Shown in pieces: positions 21,692-54,118 of a stretch of 64,000 nucleotides of DNA. The DNA is from Channallabes apus. Its lineage: Eukaryota > Chordata > Actinopteri > Siluriformes > Clariidae. Every line of letters starts with the position of its first letter. Within the stretch, counting starts at the first letter, position 1. A program made the position numbers and the translations under genes. The notes beneath the pieces are model-generated. The model had not been told where the DNA came from, searched no databases, and worked only from the letters and a program-made list of their open reading frames with translations. Location: assembly GCA_030522415.1 (NCBI GenBank), contig CM060104.1, positions 26,384,325 through 26,448,324 on the forward strand, in the 5' to 3' direction.

Positions 21692-22221
21692 CATGCAAAA
21701 GTTTTAGAACACTTGCAAATTTCTTTGTTTTTGTTTGGTGATTTATTTTCTACATTCTACAACAATACTGGGGAATTCAACACTATAAAATAACACATAT
21801 GGAATTAGGTAATTACGTAACAACAAGAAAAACTACAGTTAGTTGTTATTTTAAGACACAGAGGTCAGCCTTTCTGTAATAGTTCTTGCAATAACAGCAT
21901 TGTCAAGTGCATTTGCAAAATCCGTCAAGCACCATAATGAAACGAGACGGACGAGAGGACGAGACCAAAACCTACCTCTGCTGCAGACGAGAAGTTCATT
22001 TAGAGTTATCAACCTGAAAAATGACCAATTAACAGCACCTCAGATTAGTGGCATTATGAAGTCTTTACAGAGCAGAAGTAGCAGGAACATCTCAATGTCA
22101 ACTGTTCAAAGGAGATTAAGGCATTTTTTGGACGCCTTCAGCATTCCTTTACAATGTAGAAAGAAATAAACTTCAGGAACCATCATGAAGTTAGAAAGTG
22201 TTCTAAACATTTTGAACGTTA

Positions 22222-22225
<4 letters not shown>
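21689..22225 (+). mobile_element. Internally deleted Tc1-like element
   Basis: The ends mirror each other: CAAAAGTTTTAGAACACTT at 21695 and AAGTGTTCTAAACATTTTG at 22197. The 89-codon frame at 21900-22169 keeps a Tc1-style second helix-turn-helix block (NLKNDQLTAPQISG, STVQRRLRHF), then stops. The catalytic domain is absent. A closely related, shorter copy lies at 47803-48030. Confidence 0.72.
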
Positions 22226-42225: not shown

Positions 42226-42576
42226 TAGTTTCAGCCAGATCATTAAACTAACAATGGACTATGACACTCTTGATAGGGGATATGAAGGTGTTATTCATTT
42301 ATTTATTCTCTACAAGAGTGCGAACTACAATACAGACCAAACTATAACTCTCTCTTACTACTATAAAAATCCTAAATATAAACAAACAAAATACAGCTTT
42401 TTTTCCTCAGAGGTAAACGGAAAAGTGAAGTTGTTCAGCTGTTTACTGTCACTGCAGCTTCTTCAAAGTCTTCCCACTCCGTGACCACTGAAATCCGACA
42501 CGACACCACGTTAGGCTGCGTCTTGACTCATTTGTATACCGACGGTGATTGGATGTTTCCCGAGGGCTCAGGGGTA

Positions 42577-43636
42577 CGGAGCCCCCCAGGGGTCATGAGG
42601 GAAAAATATCAACAAACAGAGCACGCGGATTAATACATCATGCGCTCGGATTAATAAATCATGCCCTCAGAATAATAAACCGAGTGCACGGAATAAAATA
42701 TCCGTGCGTGCGGATTAATAAACCTTGCGCGCGGAATAATACCACCGTCTGCTCCGATTAATAAACTTTGAGCACGGAATAATAAACCGAGCGCGCTGAT
42801 TGGTTTACACGTCTGGATTCGAAGTTATGACCTATCGGACATGAACGGAGAAGAAGAAGCTCATATCAGCTCAACGACTTTAAGGTATGTCACCAACTTT
42901 TAACTTAATATTTAAACATTTAACTTAATTTTAAAGGTTTGTGGATATGTTTGCATGTTCCACACTTTCATGGAACATTTTATGAGGCTTTCCTGTGCCC
43001 CATCTTTTGCTCCAGGCCACGGGCATAGAATAACGCAGCATGCAGGTTTTCATTGAAATTTAAATATAATGTAAGAACACACTGCTTCCCCCGAACACAC
43101 ACACACACACACACACACTATGATATTCTGCGATCTCATTTTCCATAAGGCTTTATTCTACTGGTTCCGGACCGCGCTGAAGTTGGTTTAAAGTTGGACC
43201 TTGGGTATTCGCGCGCCGGCTTCTAGATCCCGATTTGTGGTGGAGAATAAATATTACAATATGAATATTTATAATATGAATATTATTCGTATTCGGTCAG
43301 TAATTTGCAGACGGTCACTAACTCGCGCAGTGACGAGGTTCGGTCGCCGGACTCTGATAGCGAATGTCTACCACAAACCGGAGTATAGAAGCCGGAGCGC
43401 GAATATCCAACGTCTAACTTCATACCAACGTCACCGCGGGCTAGTCCGGTTTTGGTTATACTTCAACATTATGTATGCTGACTGTAACAGTACCCAGTTT
43501 GTCCTTGTGTTACTCGCAGAAAATGTCACGTCACATATGCGCATATATTTTACAGTCTGTTTAATACCCCAATCACACCTGTGCGGTTTTGCGTGGTGGC
43601 CGTAAATACGTTTCATGCATCATGTGATTACATTTC
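42577..43636. repeat. Left terminal inverted repeat of the two-gene transposon
   Basis: Reverse complement of 52083-53154 with few differences apart from the length of a CA run (about 43093-43119). It carries the subterminal repeats, a promoter-like region and the 44-nt exon 42841-42884. A 134-codon frame (43201-43605) exists in both repeat copies but begins with TTG and has no motif; I take it for intron sequence. Confidence 0.92.
42615..42790. repeat. Subterminal tandem repeats, left
   Basis: About eight degenerate units of 20-22 bp of the type GCRCGGATTAATAAACCNTG. Arrays like this near transposon ends commonly bind the transposase. They lie directly upstream of the shared exon, so they could also control its promoter. 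Confidence 0.75.
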
Positions 43637-45186
43637 ATGTAGGACATCCAAATACATGAATGAATGGGCAGTTATGACGCTTTGGTCAGTGTAGACATGC
43701 ATAGTATTCCTTGAATTATATCTATAATTAAGGACTTGACAAAATCAACTTCTTTATATCTTATGTTAATAGGTGGCTGACCTTGGAGCAGAGTATTCCA
43801 ATTGCAAATAATTGTTTTGCACCATAAATCATTCTTTCCTTCTGGTACTTCACTGACTTGTGAACAGTTACTGCCTTGCCTGGATATTCCCTGGCATGGA
43901 TAAATCACAGCTAATTGAACTTTATTTTCTTTTGGGTCTTAAATATACAGACATTCTTCACATTCTAAGTGTAAGACATGGAATTATTGTGAGTCTGAAA
44001 ACACTGAAGCGATTTCTCAAGAAGAATGGATGCTTTCGTCGTAAACACTTTGACAACCTTGAAAATGTTATTCAGTTCATAAAAGAAGAACTGGAGGGCT
44101 CAGGGGCCCTGCATGGCTACCGGTGGATGTACAGTAAATGTAAAGACAAGGGATTACATGTTCGAAAAGAAGATGCTCGTTTAATTCTTTCAAGTCTGGA
44201 TCCAGTAGGCAGAGACTTGAGAAGGCAGAGGAGACTCAACAGAAGAGCTTACTTCGCGAAAGGGCCAAATTTTGTATGGCATGTTGATTCATATGACAAG
44301 TTAAAGCCTTTTGGCATATGTATAAACGGGGCCATAGATGGATTCTCAAGGATGATTTTGTGGCTCAATGCATACAACACAAACAGTGATCCCAAAGTTG
44401 TTGGTGGATATTTTCTCGAGACGGTAAGAGAAACTGGTGGTTGTCCTCGTACTTTAAGAGCAGACATGGGAACCGAGAACAGCTCTATCCGAGACATTCA
44501 GCGGTCCTTGCGTCAAAATGATGTTGACTTACAAAGTGGTGAAAGGAGTTTCATCTATGGGCGAAGCACAAGTAACCAAAGAATTGAAAGTTGGTGGGGA
44601 ATTCTTCGCAAAGAGTGTGTGGAGTTTTGGCTGGAGCAACTCCATAGCCTCAAAAATGAAGGTGTTTTCAATGGGGAATTCCTAGATAAAAATCTTATCA
44701 TCTTCTGCTTTCTTGGTATCATACAAGTAAGTCATTCTCACACAAAAAATCTCCATTATAAAATAATTGAATAGATATTTAAATATTTATTTATTCTGCG
44801 TATACTTCTGTTTTAATTTATTTGTGCTCTCCTCTTTCTGTCTTCAGACTGAATTGGATGCTGTCAAAGAGTCATGGAATAGTCACCTTATTCGTCCGTC
44901 ACGAAACCAGAGAGTTCCCCATGGACGCCCTGAAGTCATGCATTTATTACCGGAACTATACAACACACAGGACTACTTATGCCAGATTCCAGAGGATGAA
45001 GTCAACCATTATGAAAATGAGTGTGTCCACCGATCCGACATTGTTTGTGATAACGACGTCTTTACACTGTGCACCTCCATCATGGCTGAAAATAATCTTC
45101 ATGTTCCTGGGGACACTTACATGGCATTGGACCTCTACCTTTTCCTACGACAAGAACTAACAAATCGTCTAGACATTGAAAGATAA
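42841..45186 (+). CDS. Spliced DDE integrase-type transposase
   Basis: Predicted exons 42841-42884, 43868-44726 and 44848-45186 (1242 nt, 413 aa). Exon 1 (MNGEEEAHISSTTL) lies in the inverted repeat. The second intron has clean GTAAGT and TCTTCAG sites, phase 0. The N-terminal part (LYFLLGLKYTDILHILS) is a helix-turn-helix; then YRWMYSKC, and the rve core with D155 (WHVDSYDKLKPFG), D214 (LRADMGTEN) and E255 (NQRIESWWG), spacing 58 and 40 residues. The C-terminal part has RPSRNQRVPHGRP and TDPTLF-like Cys residues. If exon 1 is not used, translation can start at the ATG at 43896. No stop or shift is present. Confidence 0.82.
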
Positions 45187-46951
45187 AGATTGGCATGCAT
45201 GAACACAGCCCCATTCACACAATGTACTGTCTCAAGGAAAATTATCTTTTCCCTTTCCTGGGTAAATGTAAAATTAAAAGTAAATGCTTTATTGATCCTT
45301 CAGAGGTACGAAGATAGAAATATTTTGGCCATAAAGTCTGCAAAACCACCGATGAGCCTCTTAAAAATCAGTACTGACATCCCTCTGAGGCAGTTTCCCA
45401 CAGATACTGTACTTATCTTAACTCATGTGACTTTGACAGACTGACTCCACATCTGGGAGTCCACACTACTCAAAACTGAGGAAGCCGTTCAGATAAAAGG
45501 AGACAATCTTTTACAACTTCAAGTCAAGTTGCTGACATCAATATTTTTGAATGCATTTGTACAGGAATAAACATTAGATCAGATTAATTCCCCTTTTTAT
45601 CTCTAATACAGTGCAACACATCCTGGCAACAAAAAAAAAATGTGGTTTTGGTTTCTAAAAATTATTATTATTATTATTATTTTTACAATGTTTCACAAGT
45701 GCTATGCTTTGATAAGCAACATTAAAATTATTAGAATTAAGTGTGAAAGCAGGTCACTGTTTTTATATTGAGGTGCTTAAGTTATCATATTTACCTTTAA
45801 GGTTTAACAGCATTTTATTAATGTTCAAATCTAATAGAAATTATTAAAAGACAAACAGTAATTTGCGGTACAAAACACTTTATTTAAGAAATTTTATATA
45901 AAACATAACCCATAACAAATGTTCTCTGTAAAAGCTTTTTTTAAACATCATAGATACATGAACATCAATAACTACACTGAAGTGTTGGGAGTTACTCAAA
46001 TAATTACCAACGTCTACTTACAGTAGAAATGTAGAATTCACTACAAAAATAGTAAACTCAGTAAAACACTTCAGAATAACAAACAACATAAAAACAAGTG
46101 CATTGTATTTATCACAACAACTTGAACTGAAGAGTAAAGAGACAAAAAATTCCTACTTGTTCTGGAATACTTACTGTAGGTATGTTGTGAAAATACCAGA
46201 AAAATAAAATATTCATACTAACATGTTTATAATTGAAACCCAAATACTAGAATGCTTATAACTTTATGTAACACTTATTATTATATAATAATTATAATAT
46301 AAATATAATATATTATTGTATAATAAACTGTGATATATATAATGAACTGTCCTTGTTCAAGTAAAGTGTTATTACTGTATATTATCATTTGAGCTGAAAC
46401 CATCAATAGAAAACCATATTTTTGGTTTATGAACATAAAATGAGCTAATGAACAGATCTTAGCCAAATTGTGAGAACGTAAAATAATTATAATCCATCCT
46501 AAACCATATGTTGTCAGATTATATCTCATTCTGTCAAGTTAATGCAATTTGGTCAAATTTATTTTGCACTACATCAATTTCAATTTGAAAGACCCTCCAT
46601 CAAATATATCAAACATTATATCTAAATATATATATTTATTTATATCAAATAAAATTCCCCAAATGTAATTATTCAGTAAAGAAAAACACTATTTGTAAAC
46701 CTTATTTCACTTAGATAAGAAATCAAATACTGTGAAACACCACTAACATACCAATGTTTAAACTAGTCCAATAGTATTTATTAATCTAAAAATTGTGATG
46801 TCCCTGTCAACATTATGTTTGGAGTCCTAAAACCTAGGGAAGACAAAAGCAAATGCATATGAACATAAACACACTTGGTCAAAGAAAAATAGACGAATAA
46901 ATGGAAAAATAATGAATGAATGTAAATGTACTGTGCACCTGAAACTTACCT
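45187..46951. other. AT-rich spacer between the two convergent genes
   Basis: Holds the 3' ends of both transcripts. An AATAAA at about 45566 could serve the transposase. Several AATAAA-like words on the minus strand below 46952 could serve the ligase. No further gene. Confidence 0.6.
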
Positions 46952-49900
46952 CTAAATAATGTCCATTACCCACATGTTGGCATCAAGTACACTTGTAAAA
47001 TCTTCAGCAAGCTCAAGGTATGATCCGTAGTTGTTTGGCACTTCTAACACACAACCACATGTGTGTGACTGGGGGCTTCTGGTAAAGGTGCTCTTTGGCT
47101 CAGTGAAGCGCACATGGATGGACTGTGATACAAGTAGATCAGCACCTGTAAAGGTGTGCAAAAATTATTGTTAATTCAGAGGACAACCTGTGCTACCTAA
47201 ACAATACCTCCACTGTCACATAAGAACACACTGTTTTCTTAATGGGAAGTGCCCAAAACCAGGGTGCATATTGACTAAGCATCTCAAAGTATGAAATTGC
47301 TCCAAAATTCAAAAATTTTGGTCAAACTTTTAGGAGTAGGAATAAGAACAATTCATTAACATTCTTAACATAGAAAATCACGCTTTTCTCCACCAAAATG
47401 TAGAAGAGTTCCCGAGGTACGTATGAGTCGTGAGGAAATGGATCAGGCAGAGACGTGAGCGGACATGGATCTCATAAAAGATGTTTGGACATATTGGTTT
47501 TAAAACCAATAACGTTGTGTATGTAACTGCTCCATTAATGAGCATGTTGTATGCTGTCTCTGCTACTCTGTTTTTTTAGTAACAGCAAAGATGCAGCTTT
47601 GAAACACAGACGGCAGTGTCGGAAATAATAAATTAAACTCTGTTCTTACAGCACCGCTGATCATGCGCAGATTCATACATTCCCACTATATAATGGGAAA
47701 TCAAAGAAAAACAAGCTGCATTTATTGAGTTCAGGGCATCCTTATAAATATAGAAATCCAATTATATTTATATATTCTATATATACATAATTACATAATA
47801 TACACTCCTGTTCAAAAGTTTGGGGTCACTTGCAAATTTCTTTGCAAGAGTCGTTATGAAGTCTTTACAGAGCAGAAGTAGCAGACACATCTCAATATCA
47901 ACTGTTCAAAGGAGATTATTGCATATTTTGGACATCGCCAGCATTCCTTTACAATGTAGAAAGAAATAAAAATCAGGAATGATCATGGAGTTAGAAAGTG
48001 ACCCCAAACTTTTGAAGGTAGTGTACACCTACTGTAACTGTTTCTTGACATTCTTTGTCATAAGCAGGACTTTATCACAGTGTATTCCCATGTTTCACAC
48101 TCCTCAGGGGTACATGCAGCAAACTGACAGGTGGCATTGAGGCTTTCACAAATTGACTCTACTCACTTTTTACCTTTAGAGGTAAGAGTAGGGCAGAATT
48201 TTACTTTCATTATTTCTTTACATTTTACTCCCTTCTTTGCAAACTAAACTGTCTGTTGAGCACAAAGCTTTCACACAACTGATGTTGATTTCATCATTTC
48301 GCTTTTCCACCATTTAAAACTACAAAAACCAGTAAAAACTACAACACCCACTATAACGCGCAGCCTACTTTGAAAGCATGTGATATCACTCTTTAAGAGC
48401 AGCAAATTAGGCTGCATGTTATAGTGGGTATTGTAGTTTGACTTGTTTATTGTTTAAAATAGTGAAAAAGTTAAATGCTGAAATCAGTGGCAGTTGGTTG
48501 AAAGCTAAACTTATAGACGTGCGACTCGGATGCAGAATGTCAGGCTAATCAGACTGCTCCAATCACAACTGTTTAAAGCCCTATAATACAGCTATGCAAG
48601 ACTGTCACAATCTGATGAAAATTACCTCGAAAAGAAAGCGAAACTGGAGAGAGAATGAGAGCATTTTGCTTGCAAGGGAGGGAGTAAAATGTAAAGAAAT
48701 AATTTAGGTAAAATTTCACCCTACTCTTACTTCTAACGATAAAAAGCAAGTGGCGGCAATTTGTGAAAGCATCAATACCATGTGTCAGTTTGCCGCACAT
48801 ACCCCAAAGGAGTGTGAGAAATGGGGGTACGCCGTGGTAATGAAGTGATGAAGTGTGGCTCAAAAAACATTTGTGTACACTGTCAAATAATTGAATACAG
48901 ATATATAAAATATATAAAAATAAAATAAAATTAATCATTTAAAAAAATAATAATAATAATTAAAAAATAATATATATAGGAACACAATTTCCTCACAACC
49001 AATAACCAGTTAGGACACCTTCTAAGTTTTCGTGGGGATAGAAGTAATTTCCTGTTTTAATAATGTTGAAAACTCCTACACCTGAAAGCAGGACCAAAAT
49101 GATGTGACTCTTTTGGCCACTTAGGAGAGATTTCTTACTCAGAGAGGCTTAGTAAATAAAGGCCCTGGAGTTTCCACAAAATCATGGCAAAAGCTTCATA
49201 TAACATCCATCCTTTTGCCTTTTTGGAAAAAGGTGAGCACTTCCTCCAAGTATATGATTAGACAGAATACAGACAGAGAAGTCTGTCTCAAATTAGACAG
49301 AGAAGTTGATATTGCCTGGAGACTGATCAGTGTATAGCAGGTTTCCCAAAAAATACTGTATAGGAAGAAATGGTTGGCATAAATGCAAAGTGAGGTTAAA
49401 AAGTGAGGAAAATCTGGAGGTGTTAGAGAGATTTTTTAAATGTACATTATATTACAATTCCCCAGAACATTTTTTATGGTAATATCTTTAATTATTAGTT
49501 ACAAAATATCACTTGTGCGAAAATACAAACAAAAACATTACCTGTGCAAAACCGGAGAAATTTCCTCAGGCGAACATCACTACAGGTCCTGATAAATTTT
49601 TTAAGGAAATCCAGAATCTGACACTCTCGTTTGTTGAGAGTTTCATGTTGCAACATTGCTACAACCTTCCTGGTTGTGGGAGTGAGATTAGACATCACTT
49701 CATCTAGTCCTCCTGGAGGAAGATGGAGTCCCTGCAGAATATTGCTCCAACACTCTGCTACATAGGCTGGGTCTTGCACCATTTCTTTGTGTGCAACTTC
49801 AAGCAGAGTTCTCCTCAAATTGTCCTCCGTGACATGTCTTTTAATGTCATGTGCCTCAAGGAATTCAAACCATTCTTCTTTTCCAAAAATGGATTTAAAA

Positions 49901-52600
49901 TCTCTCATTGCCTGCTCTGCAATCTCCTTATCTTCACTTGGAATTGTTTCCAGGAATGCAGCAAGCAGTTCATCATCCTTGATTTCCTGGTGAAGGCAGT
50001 GAGAAAGAAAGGGCTTAGCCAAGGCCACAGGAAAGTACTTTGCCATGTTGTAGCCTAACACCATCACTTTGGCCACATTCTCCCACTCGTCTTTCATATC
50101 ATGCCTGATCATTGGAACTTTCAGCACATTCCCAGTTGTGCATTTTAGTATAAATGTTTCCCAGTACTCACTCAAGGCATCACGCAAGACCCCACCATTG
50201 TCCTCTCCCTTTTCAGCATTGCCATTTGGAAGGACCATCTCAATCTCCAGCAGCATGTCATCAACTGTTATCTGTCCATCCTTAAATGCAGCATTCAGTT
50301 CATAAAATATGTTTCCCCTTCGAAGTCTTAGTTTAACAACCTTATTTTCATGATGAAGTCCTATTGGTGGTGGTTGTACTACAGCAGTCTCCACTGGAAG
50401 AGTGTCATCCAGGACAACATTGTCATATGGGAGGTAAACGTACCCTATTTGGATCTCCTCATCAACTGAAACTGATGTGTTTTGTTCTTGCAGCAGGTCA
50501 TGGTCATCTAAATGCAATGGTGATGGGAATTTCTCATCATTAGCATCAACAAAAAGAAACCTTGTGTCTGTTGTGGATGTGCTTGCCATTACAGTGTCAG
50601 TGGTAAGTTTGATGGGAGTGCTTGTCAACATAGCAACTTCACTGGCATGCTCATCAACGACAATTCCTGTGCTTTTTGAGTGTGTGTGTAGAGATGAAGC
50701 TATATGTGAATCTACTTGATTTGCAGTTATGTCCTGTGCATCCGTGAAAATCCTTTTGCATGACACATAAAGTCTAAGCAGTTTCACTTTTCTCAAATTG
50801 TACAGCTGACCAAGTGTCATGGATGAGTCCAGCTCAGCTTCAGTGAAGTCTCTTAGTGTAAATTCAAACTGATTTATATTTCCAAGCTTGTTTTTTCCCT
50901 GCGGGAAAAACAGATCTTTGCCAGTGTTCAACAGCTCACTCACTGGAGTGTCCTTCGATGCCTTGAGATGTCTGACTCCACCTCCTTTTCTTTCTCTGAC
51001 TTGAATAAGTGAGCCTTCGACCTCTTCAAACAAGCCAATTTGATATGTACGGCTGTTTTTGAGGGCATTTAAGTTGCCAGCTAATTTTTGAGAACGATTA
51101 TCTGAATGAGATCTTTTACCAGTCCTCCGTAGTTGAATTTTTTCTCGTAGACTTTGAGTCGCTTTTGACACAATCGAGGAACTCTTTTCAAATGCTGCCA
51201 CTTCTCTTCTGCAATACTGTCGAATGGCAATTCTGTCTCCAAATTTGGGAACATATTTCATTAGCTGCTCATCTGACATCCCGTTTACAGCATAACAGTC
51301 TATCTGCAGAGGAGAGTTGAGGGATTATTGTATATAATAAACAATAACAATAAACACAAGAAATGGCACTATAGCCTTAAGCCATAGTTCAAATTGCCAC
51401 ATATATTTATAATGCTAAATATTGTAGTATTTGATTAAAGACTGACAAAGTATTAACGCTAATTGTCAGCCATGTAACCCATGTGCATAATGTTATGTAT
51501 ATCCACAAATACTATAAACACAGGATACTGGGATTTTAGGTGTTTACATGTACATAACCCATATACCATATATACCTAGTGCACTTTCATCCAGATTACA
51601 AGAGAATAAAGAGTTTACGATGTGATGTCCTACTCCAAATTCCTTCCTTCTACTTTTATGCTATTATAACTACTATGCTATTCTACTTTTATACAGTATA
51701 ATGTGGGAACAGAGCAATATAAAAAAGTCAATACTATAGTATAGAAACAAAAACCTTCTAATTGAGATGCACTTACCTTTTCATTTACAAACACGGAGAT
51801 GATGCCCTGATCCAACTCACGCTGTTGTTGCAGAAAATCTAAGAATCCCTGATCCATTCTGTCCAAAAAAGGCAAATACACTATGAAAAAGCACGAACTG
51901 TTCAGTCAGTCTGACAGAATGCATCTATTAGACCAATCTATCTGTGCCCCCCTTTATACACCTACTGTATACGGTTTGACTCGGTGTGGCACCGTGAGCC
52001 GCCTCGAGTGACTGCCCGACGTTCCGGGAGCTTTCTCATGTTAATGTTCATCATGTTTAATGTTTTTCCGCGTGGAAAGATGGAAATGTAATCACATGAT
52101 GCATGAAACGTATTTACGGCCACCACGCAAAACTGCACAGGTGTGATTGGGGTATTAAACAGACTGTAAAATATATGCGCATATGTGACGTGACATTTTC
52201 TGCGAGTAACACAAGGACAAACTGGGTACTGTTACAGTCAGCATACATAATGTTGAAGTATAACCAAAACCGGACTAGCCCGCGGTGACGTTGGTATGAA
52301 GTTAGACGTTGGATATTCGCGCTCCGGCTTCTATACTCCGGTTTGTGGCGGACATTCGCTATCAGAGTCCGGCGACCGAACCTCGTCACTGCGCAAGTTA
52401 CTGACCGTCTGCAAATTACTGACTGAATACCAATAATATTCATATTATAAATATTCATATTGTAATATTTATTCTCCACCACAAATCGGGATCTAGAAGC
52501 AGGCGCGCGAATACCCAAGGTCCAACTTTAAACCAACTTCAGCGCGGTCCGGAACCAGTAGAATAAACAGCCTTATGGAAAATGAGATCGCAGAATATCA

Positions 52601-52637
<37 letters not shown>

Positions 52638-52890
52638 CGGGGGAAGCAGTGTGTTCTTACATTATATTTAAATTTCAATGAAAACCTGCATGCTGCGTTA
52701 TTCTATGCCCGTGGCCTGGAGCAAAAGATGGGGCACAGGAAAGCCTCATAAAATGTTCCATGAAAGTGTGGAACATGCAAACATATCCACAAACCTTTAA
52801 AATTAAGTTAAATGTTTAAATATTAAGTTAAAAGTTGGTGACATACCTTAAAGTCGTTGAGCTGATATGAGCTTCTTCTTCTCCGTTCAT
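46952..52890 (-). CDS. Spliced SAM/HECT-like E3 ubiquitin ligase, transposon-borne
   Basis: Predicted exons 52890-52847, 51858-51777, 51303-49542 and 47145-46952 (2082 nt, 693 aa). Donors GTATGT, GTAAGT and GTAATG; acceptors TTTTGGACAG, CCTCTGCAG and CCTTTACAG. Exon 1 is the one in the right inverted repeat. Residues about 16-80 look like a SAM domain (VNEKIDCYAVNGMSDEQLMK). After a long Ser/Thr-rich linker comes a HECT N-lobe (EDNGGVLRDALSEYW; VLGYNMAKYFPVALAKPFL). The last exon gives the C-lobe, with SHTCGCVLEVP placing the catalytic Cys at about 659, 34 residues from the end as in HECT enzymes. It resembles fish proteins annotated as G2E3-like. Role in transposition unknown. Confidence 0.82.
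47803..48030. mobile_element. Short Tc1-derived MITE in the ligase intron
   Basis: Ends are inverted: TGTTCAAAAGTTTGGGGTCA and TGACCCCAAACTTTTGAA. The inside shares GTCTTTACAGAGCAGAAGTA with the element at 21689-22225. Confidence 0.75.
48085..48835. mobile_element. Foldback element in the ligase intron
   Basis: A near-complete palindrome. CCCATGTTTCACACTCCT at 48088 pairs with AGGAGTGTGAGAAATGGG. Arms of about 170 bp pair through GAAATAATTTAGGTAAAAT-type sequence, and the centre repeats CAACACCCACTATAACGCG against ATAGTGGGTATTGTAGTTT. No coding capacity. Confidence 0.7.
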
Positions 52891-53154
52891 GTCCGATAGG
52901 TCATAACTTCGAATCCAGACGTGTAAACCAATCAGCGCGCTCGGTTTATTATTCCGTGCTCAAAGTTTATTAATCGGAGCAGACGGTGGTATTATTCCGC
53001 GCGCAAGGTTTATTAATCCGCACGCACGGATATTTTATTCCGTGCACTCGGTTTATTATTCTGAGGGCATGATTTATTAATCCGAGCGCATGATGTATTA
53101 ATCCGCGTGCTCTGTTTGTTGATATTTTTCCCTCATGACCCCTGGGGGGCTCCG
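52083..53154. repeat. Right terminal inverted repeat of the two-gene transposon
   Basis: Inverse of 42577-43636. It holds the identical 44-nt exon on the minus strand (52890-52847) and a TG run of about 34 bp (about 52602-52635), longer than in the left copy. Confidence 0.92.
52929..53118. repeat. Subterminal tandem repeats, right
   Basis: Mirror of 42615-42790. Confidence 0.75.
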
Positions 53155-54118
53155 TAAACAGTGAAACATTCCACAGGTTTATAATACATGGCGGCCAAGT
53201 GAACCACGTTCCCGTCGAACGAAACGAGGCATAATCGTGGTGTTTGCTTCGGTTATGACACACCATAGTTTATTATCTGCTGTGGTAGATCTGATTATTT
53301 ATCCAAACACAATAATAAAGCTTTATATCCTCAGGAGGGCTCAGTACATTGTTTTAGCGATAGTTTCACGGAAGCGAGTTCAGAACTAATCTAACCAAAC
53401 CAAAAAAAAAAAAAAACATCCGAAGCTTCAAATAGAATGAACGAACTAATGAAATTGATATATATGTAATTGATATACTGTATATACAGACGTGTGTGTG
53501 TCATTTTAATTCAAATGAACATTTTAATGCTTTCTGATACACTTATCAACTTATCCACATACACTTATCAACACAAACTCTCCGTGCACGCACACACAAT
53601 CTCTAAAAAATGAATATTAATAACATACATATACAAATAAACAAAAATATAAACGTCTATATTGAAGTTTACGGTGAACGCAGAGTCGGCTAAGCACACG
53701 TGATGTTTTCTAACATGCGTTAGATAGTTTTTTTTTATGACTCTATACACAATACTTTGCTATTTTTATAGATGTTGAGCATCGTGAGCAAGCCCGAGAT
53801 CATATTAACGTTAATTATCACCAGCCGGCATGAATAGCACACGAGTAACGTGAGTTGGACGCACACCAATCGATTCGACTATGGTTAATCGCTCACTCCG
53901 TAGGCTCCCTGAATAGGCGGGAAAGGGATGGAACCGCGCATTCGTCCCGGCAGGAAAAAAAAAAACTAAACAGATCTAACAGATGAGGACTCAGATTAAT
54001 GTGCAAAAAATATATAATAAAAACTATATAAGTCTACATAGCCTTTATAAGACTCTACCTTAAGCGCACTTAAAACATTTTGTTTAGTTTTAAAATAAAA
54101 CAATTTTAAAACATAACT

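Follow-up and report, generated by a model that had tools for sequence, protein, structure and literature searches.

An element with long inverted repeats

The window (the whole stretch of DNA analyzed, 64,000 nucleotides) contains an element at 42575-53156 that encloses two convergent genes, one encoding a transposase and the other a HECT-like protein. It is bounded by a left terminal inverted repeat (42575-43636, forward strand, 1062 nt), which starts with TACGG, and a right terminal inverted repeat (52083-53156, reverse strand, 1074 nt), which ends with CCGTA. Inverted repeats of ~1.06 kb had been described in a first-pass annotation and are confirmed here, except that each outer end reaches two bases further than 42577 and 53154. 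The two repeats differ by 8 substitutions, all within 43218-43585, and by two indels, one of 10 nt (in a CA run) and one of 2 nt (near 43151). The outer 643 nt have no substitutions and differ by the two indels only, with all 8 substitutions lying further in; under an even spread, the chance that 8 of 8 would fall in the inner 485 of the 1062 nt is ~0.002. This skew fits with either constraint on, or recent homogenization of, the outer repeat, without pointing to the exon described below in particular.

A subterminal array of ~21-nt units occupies 42626-42784 (forward strand) and is mirrored in the right repeat at 53105-52947. The motif [CT][CG]GA[AT]TAATA has six matches in the left array, six mirrored matches in the right one and a single match elsewhere in the window (29072), and it is possible that the array units are candidate transposase sites. 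No target site duplication was found at this copy: the 40-base stretches around the two ends have no 5-10 bp word in common, and the flanks differ (CAGGGG on the left, AACAGT on the right). The copy may therefore be rearranged.

Smaller inverted repeats are also present within the element. The CpG-rich inner block of the left repeat contains a 73-nt imperfect inverted repeat (43172-43244 / 43367-43439; 82%, arms 122 nt apart), with a mirrored counterpart in the right repeat; it is perhaps a nested older insertion. A 177-nt inverted repeat (48072-48248 / 48664-48840; 81%) in the large intron of the HECT-like gene is perhaps a nested non-autonomous transposon, and another piece of this intron (47854-48024) is 87% like 22054-22225. 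A 137-codon open frame present in both repeats (43192-43605 and 52527-52114) was considered as a repeat-encoded protein; it has no Pfam match at E 1 and 7 of the 8 substitutions alter a residue in it, and it was therefore rejected as coding.

The transposase and HECT-like genes

Downstream of a putative first exon in the left repeat, the transposase gene comprises exon 2 (43868-44726, forward strand), with an internal ATG at 43896 and the integrase core, and exon 3 (44848-45186, forward strand), which reaches the stop codon. Its product matches the Pfam family rva_4 (integrase core) above cut-off (E = 3e-29). The NCBIfam matches to IS481 (4.7e-6) and IS3 (1e-5) are both far under their own cut-offs, and the IS3/IS481 affinity is thus remote. 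Based on these matches, the protein is assigned to the IS3/IS481-type DDE transposases with remote affinity, and D131, D190 and E231 (numbered from the internal Met) are the likely catalytic triad.

The HECT-like gene is encoded on the reverse strand. Following its putative first exon in the right repeat are exon 2 (51777-51858), with an internal ATG at 51857, exon 3 (49542-51303), in which the HECT match begins, and exon 4 (46952-47145), which contains most of it (residues 600-677 of 693) as well as the stop codon. The HECT domain scores under the Pfam cut-off (21.5 bits vs. 23.9; E = 0.00021; profile positions 210-291 of 306), a weak match that suggests a divergent HECT-like protein. The sequence SHTCGC, which we take to be the candidate catalytic cysteine site of the HECT C-lobe, falls inside the weakly matched stretch. 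For the N-terminal 217 residues there is no Pfam match at E 1.

Searches of PDB sequences at E 0.1 returned no matches for transposase exon 2 or for the joined HECT-like protein, and AlphaFold2 models made without an alignment had mean pLDDT values of 41.1 (transposase exon 2 from its ATG) and 35.8 (HECT exon 3). Single-protein queries, which recover close relatives only, gave 2 pattern matches in viral contigs and 5 in prokaryotic contigs for the transposase, and 4 in viral contigs for HECT exon 3, none of which was confirmed; the first 30 bases of the 44-nt exon discussed below had no match in viral contigs. Because these contig collections are viral and prokaryotic, misses there say little about fish.

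According to excerpts of the published work, complete IS3EU families have TA..TA termini and usually 6-bp target duplications (PMC10045372); fungal IS3EU elements have the signature TAYGG..CCRTA, and in those that carry TET the transposase and alpha-kinase genes are oppositely oriented (PMC12730594). IS3EU is also tabulated among the elements of four teleost genomes (PMC4746887) and named in a killifish study (PMC12763893), so an element of this kind in a fish is unremarkable. The element described here ends in TACGG..CCGTA, matching both the TA..TA termini and the fungal signature, and has a transposase with IS3/IS481 affinity. Like the TET-carrying fungal elements, it has a second gene opposite to the transposase, although this gene is HECT-like here and an alpha-kinase there; the word HECT appears 0 times in the main text of PMC10045372 and PMC12730594. 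The excerpts of these two papers also make no mention of repeats of >1 kb with a putative coding exon, as seen here, and our literature search yielded no paper joining HECT and IS3EU. In addition, the usual 6-bp target duplication was not found at this copy. This duplication is a property of the insertion event, but its lack here is the reason for calling the element IS3EU-like and not filing it as a member of the group; it is best explained as a DNA transposon of the IS3EU-like kind, in a genome resembling that of a fish.

A 44-nt stretch common to both repeats

The first-pass annotation had reported that both repeats carry the same 44-nt stretch, joined in frame to two different genes, and each of these points was reproduced. 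The stretch (ATG...AAG, reading MNGEEEAHISSTTL plus AG) lies at 42841-42884 on the forward strand, as the putative coding first exon of the transposase gene, and at 52890-52847 on the reverse strand, as the putative first exon of the HECT-like gene, and in both positions is followed by a GTATGT donor. Its phase allows in-frame joins to both 43868 and 51858. The resulting models, of 1242 nt for the transposase (42841-42884, 43868-44726, 44848-45186) and 2082 nt for the HECT-like protein (52890-52847, 51858-51777, 51303-49542, 47145-46952), are open to the stop. The 44-nt stretch shows no difference between the repeats, but this identity follows from the repeats being near-identical and is hence no separate evidence. 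Just upstream, the ATG at 42827 starts a frame of five codons (42827-42844) whose TGA overlaps the exon-1 ATG (ATGA).

Donors and acceptors were scored with an ad hoc splice-site matrix. By this measure no donor in 42575-43900 exceeds that at 42885 (5.03; the runner-up scores 2.38), which is also the only candidate of at least 3 with an ATG-opened frame. For the HECT-like gene, the acceptor at 51858 (3.90) has the highest score in the interval from the right repeat to the internal ATG. The transposase acceptor at 43868 scores -2.8, a value that 32% of AGs equal or exceed; the AG at 43773 scores above it (1.21) but offers no open join. No acceptor in the region outscores the one at 43016 (7.44; mirrored at 52715), which falls within the repeat, and with splicing to this site the exon-1 frame would hit a stop after four codons. 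AG-free runs of 73, 72 and 64 nt precede 43868, transposase exon 3 and HECT exon 3, respectively, compared with 41 nt for HECT exon 4 and only 21 nt for 51858; gaps of at least 71 nt account for 1.6% of the AG gaps in the window. The transposase gene has 11 AGs in the 260 nt preceding its internal ATG, and the sole one with an open join is the proposed acceptor 43868; in the HECT-like gene there are 15, two of them with open joins, including the proposed acceptor 51858.

The frequency of such joins by chance was estimated from 4000 random 1062-nt segments taken from both strands of the window outside the element, with overlapping draws that are not independent. A donor of at least 5 with an ATG-opened exon was present in 757 of the 4000 segments, and in 147 (about 4%) this exon was open to both acceptors; the number was likewise 147 when any AG within 260 nt was allowed. 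With donors of at least 3, 875 of 4000 segments (22%) were open to both fixed acceptors. Given a chance of about 4% under the strict and 22% under the loose cut, compatible frames by themselves provide modest support, amounting to a factor of at most about 27 and of about 5 under the looser donor cut.

The 266 nt preceding exon 1 (42575-42840, forward strand; mirrored in the right repeat) are CpG-rich (o/e 1.60, GC 45%), contain ATTGG (inverted CCAAT) and represent a putative promoter region. The CpG o/e is 0.54 in the following 311 nt, the AT-rich part of the repeat that includes the exon, and 1.44 in the inner repeat block (43152-43636), which lies inside the proposed intron; it ranges from 0.19 to 0.52 in the element interior and from 0.54 to 0.64 in the flanks. 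Between the donor and the internal ATG there are 24 ATGs in the transposase gene and 21 in the HECT-like gene. These counts make unspliced leaders unlikely, and splicing is expected if the outer repeat holds the transcription start.

Proposed expression from the repeats and competing explanations

In the mechanism that we favor, each repeat would carry a promoter together with a first exon that terminates in a strong donor, with transcription from the left repeat entering the transposase gene and transcription from the right repeat entering the HECT-like gene; the same first exon would then be spliced to 43868 or 51858. In its preferred form the exon is coding, and both products would start with MNGEEEAHISSTTL. 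The arrangement probably originated when one end of the element, promoter and exon included, was duplicated at the other, or when gene conversion homogenized the two. Repeat-borne expression with a shared coding start had been proposed in the first-pass annotation, and its two components fare differently: a leader for both genes is backed by the best donor, acceptors with open joins, CpG content and the many intervening ATGs, whereas the evidence for the coding start is that of the frame, with strong internal ATGs competing. We consider it probable that both genes take their promoter and first exon from the repeat, and have considerable confidence in a repeat-borne exon of either sort, coding or leader. 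As the open frame favors a coding exon and the internal ATGs favor a leader, the chances that the 14 residues of the 44-nt exon are a shared protein start appear evenly balanced.

The alternative that survives best retains the repeat-borne promoter and treats the exon as a spliced leader, with translation from the internal ATGs at 43896 and 51857; the exon-1 ATG would then open a short upstream frame that is in phase by chance, or that is sometimes used via leaky scanning. Both internal ATGs precede the parts of the proteins that match known families and have contexts (GGCATGG, AAGAATGG) that we take to be strong under the Kozak-type rule and better than that of the exon-1 ATG. Splicing to the strong acceptor at 43016 would likewise yield a leader within which the frame of exon 1 terminates, and of the 757 random segments in which an ATG-opened exon ends at a donor of at least 5, 147 join open to both genes. 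However, the context of the exon-1 ATG (GACATGA) is usable and this ATG would be the first encountered by scanning ribosomes, and the joins to both genes are open. We regard translation from the internal ATGs as a possibility with clearly less than an even chance.

A separate start for each gene, located either within the element or in the repeat's CpG-rich inner half (43152-43636), with the 44-nt stretch being no exon, would agree with the high CpG o/e of that block and with the weak matrix score of 43868. It is nevertheless unlikely: an unspliced leader from the inner repeat would present 13 ATGs, from 43471 on, ahead of the transposase ATG, and 51858 is a good acceptor immediately upstream of the HECT ATG. 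The lack of a common word at the two ends could also reflect a dead or rearranged composite, such as the joined ends of two insertions, in which the arrangement is functionless, but with both spliced frames open and the outermost 643 nt of the two repeats separated by only two indels this is very improbable.

Maize MuDR provides a parallel for expression from terminal repeats, as its convergent genes mudrA and mudrB are each driven by a promoter within the near-identical terminal inverted repeat. To our knowledge, MuDR coding sequences begin inside the element, with no common N-terminus encoded by the repeat. The element described here is similar to MuDR in its two convergent genes and near-identical terminal inverted repeats, with promoters that are only putative, and differs in having an unrelated transposase. 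The first-pass annotation knew of no description of the arrangement, but parts of it have precedents: promoters in the repeats are familiar from MuDR. Excerpts on fungal IS3EU elements describe genes in opposite orientations (PMC12730594), and a coding first exon shared through the repeat would be new relative to both systems rather than categorically new.

Taken further, the coding-exon mechanism would make the repeats portable promoter-plus-coding-exon cassettes, with any enclosed gene spliced from the repeat and the transposase and HECT-like protein carrying the same N-terminal tag; we offer this extension tentatively and consider it doubtful. If it were true, the common tag could allow the cell or the element to address the two proteins with a single signal, and gene conversion between the repeats would hold both N-termini identical. 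In that case, once one end had been copied onto the other, a captured gene would immediately possess promoter, start codon and splice donor, which would explain how DNA transposons with long inverted repeats acquire working second genes.

Other parts of the window contain two UnaL2 LINE tails, frames that we take to be Tc1-like, piggyBac-like and retroelement-like, and what we read as repeated immunoglobulin-V-like exons; this mix is indicative of a teleost fish. The presumed immunoglobulin-V-like frames, several of one repeated kind, are on the forward strand at 3317-31236 (from about 3317, 3700, 9895, 11180, 12050 and 30610) and, by our reading of the frames, suggest an immune-receptor-like cluster.
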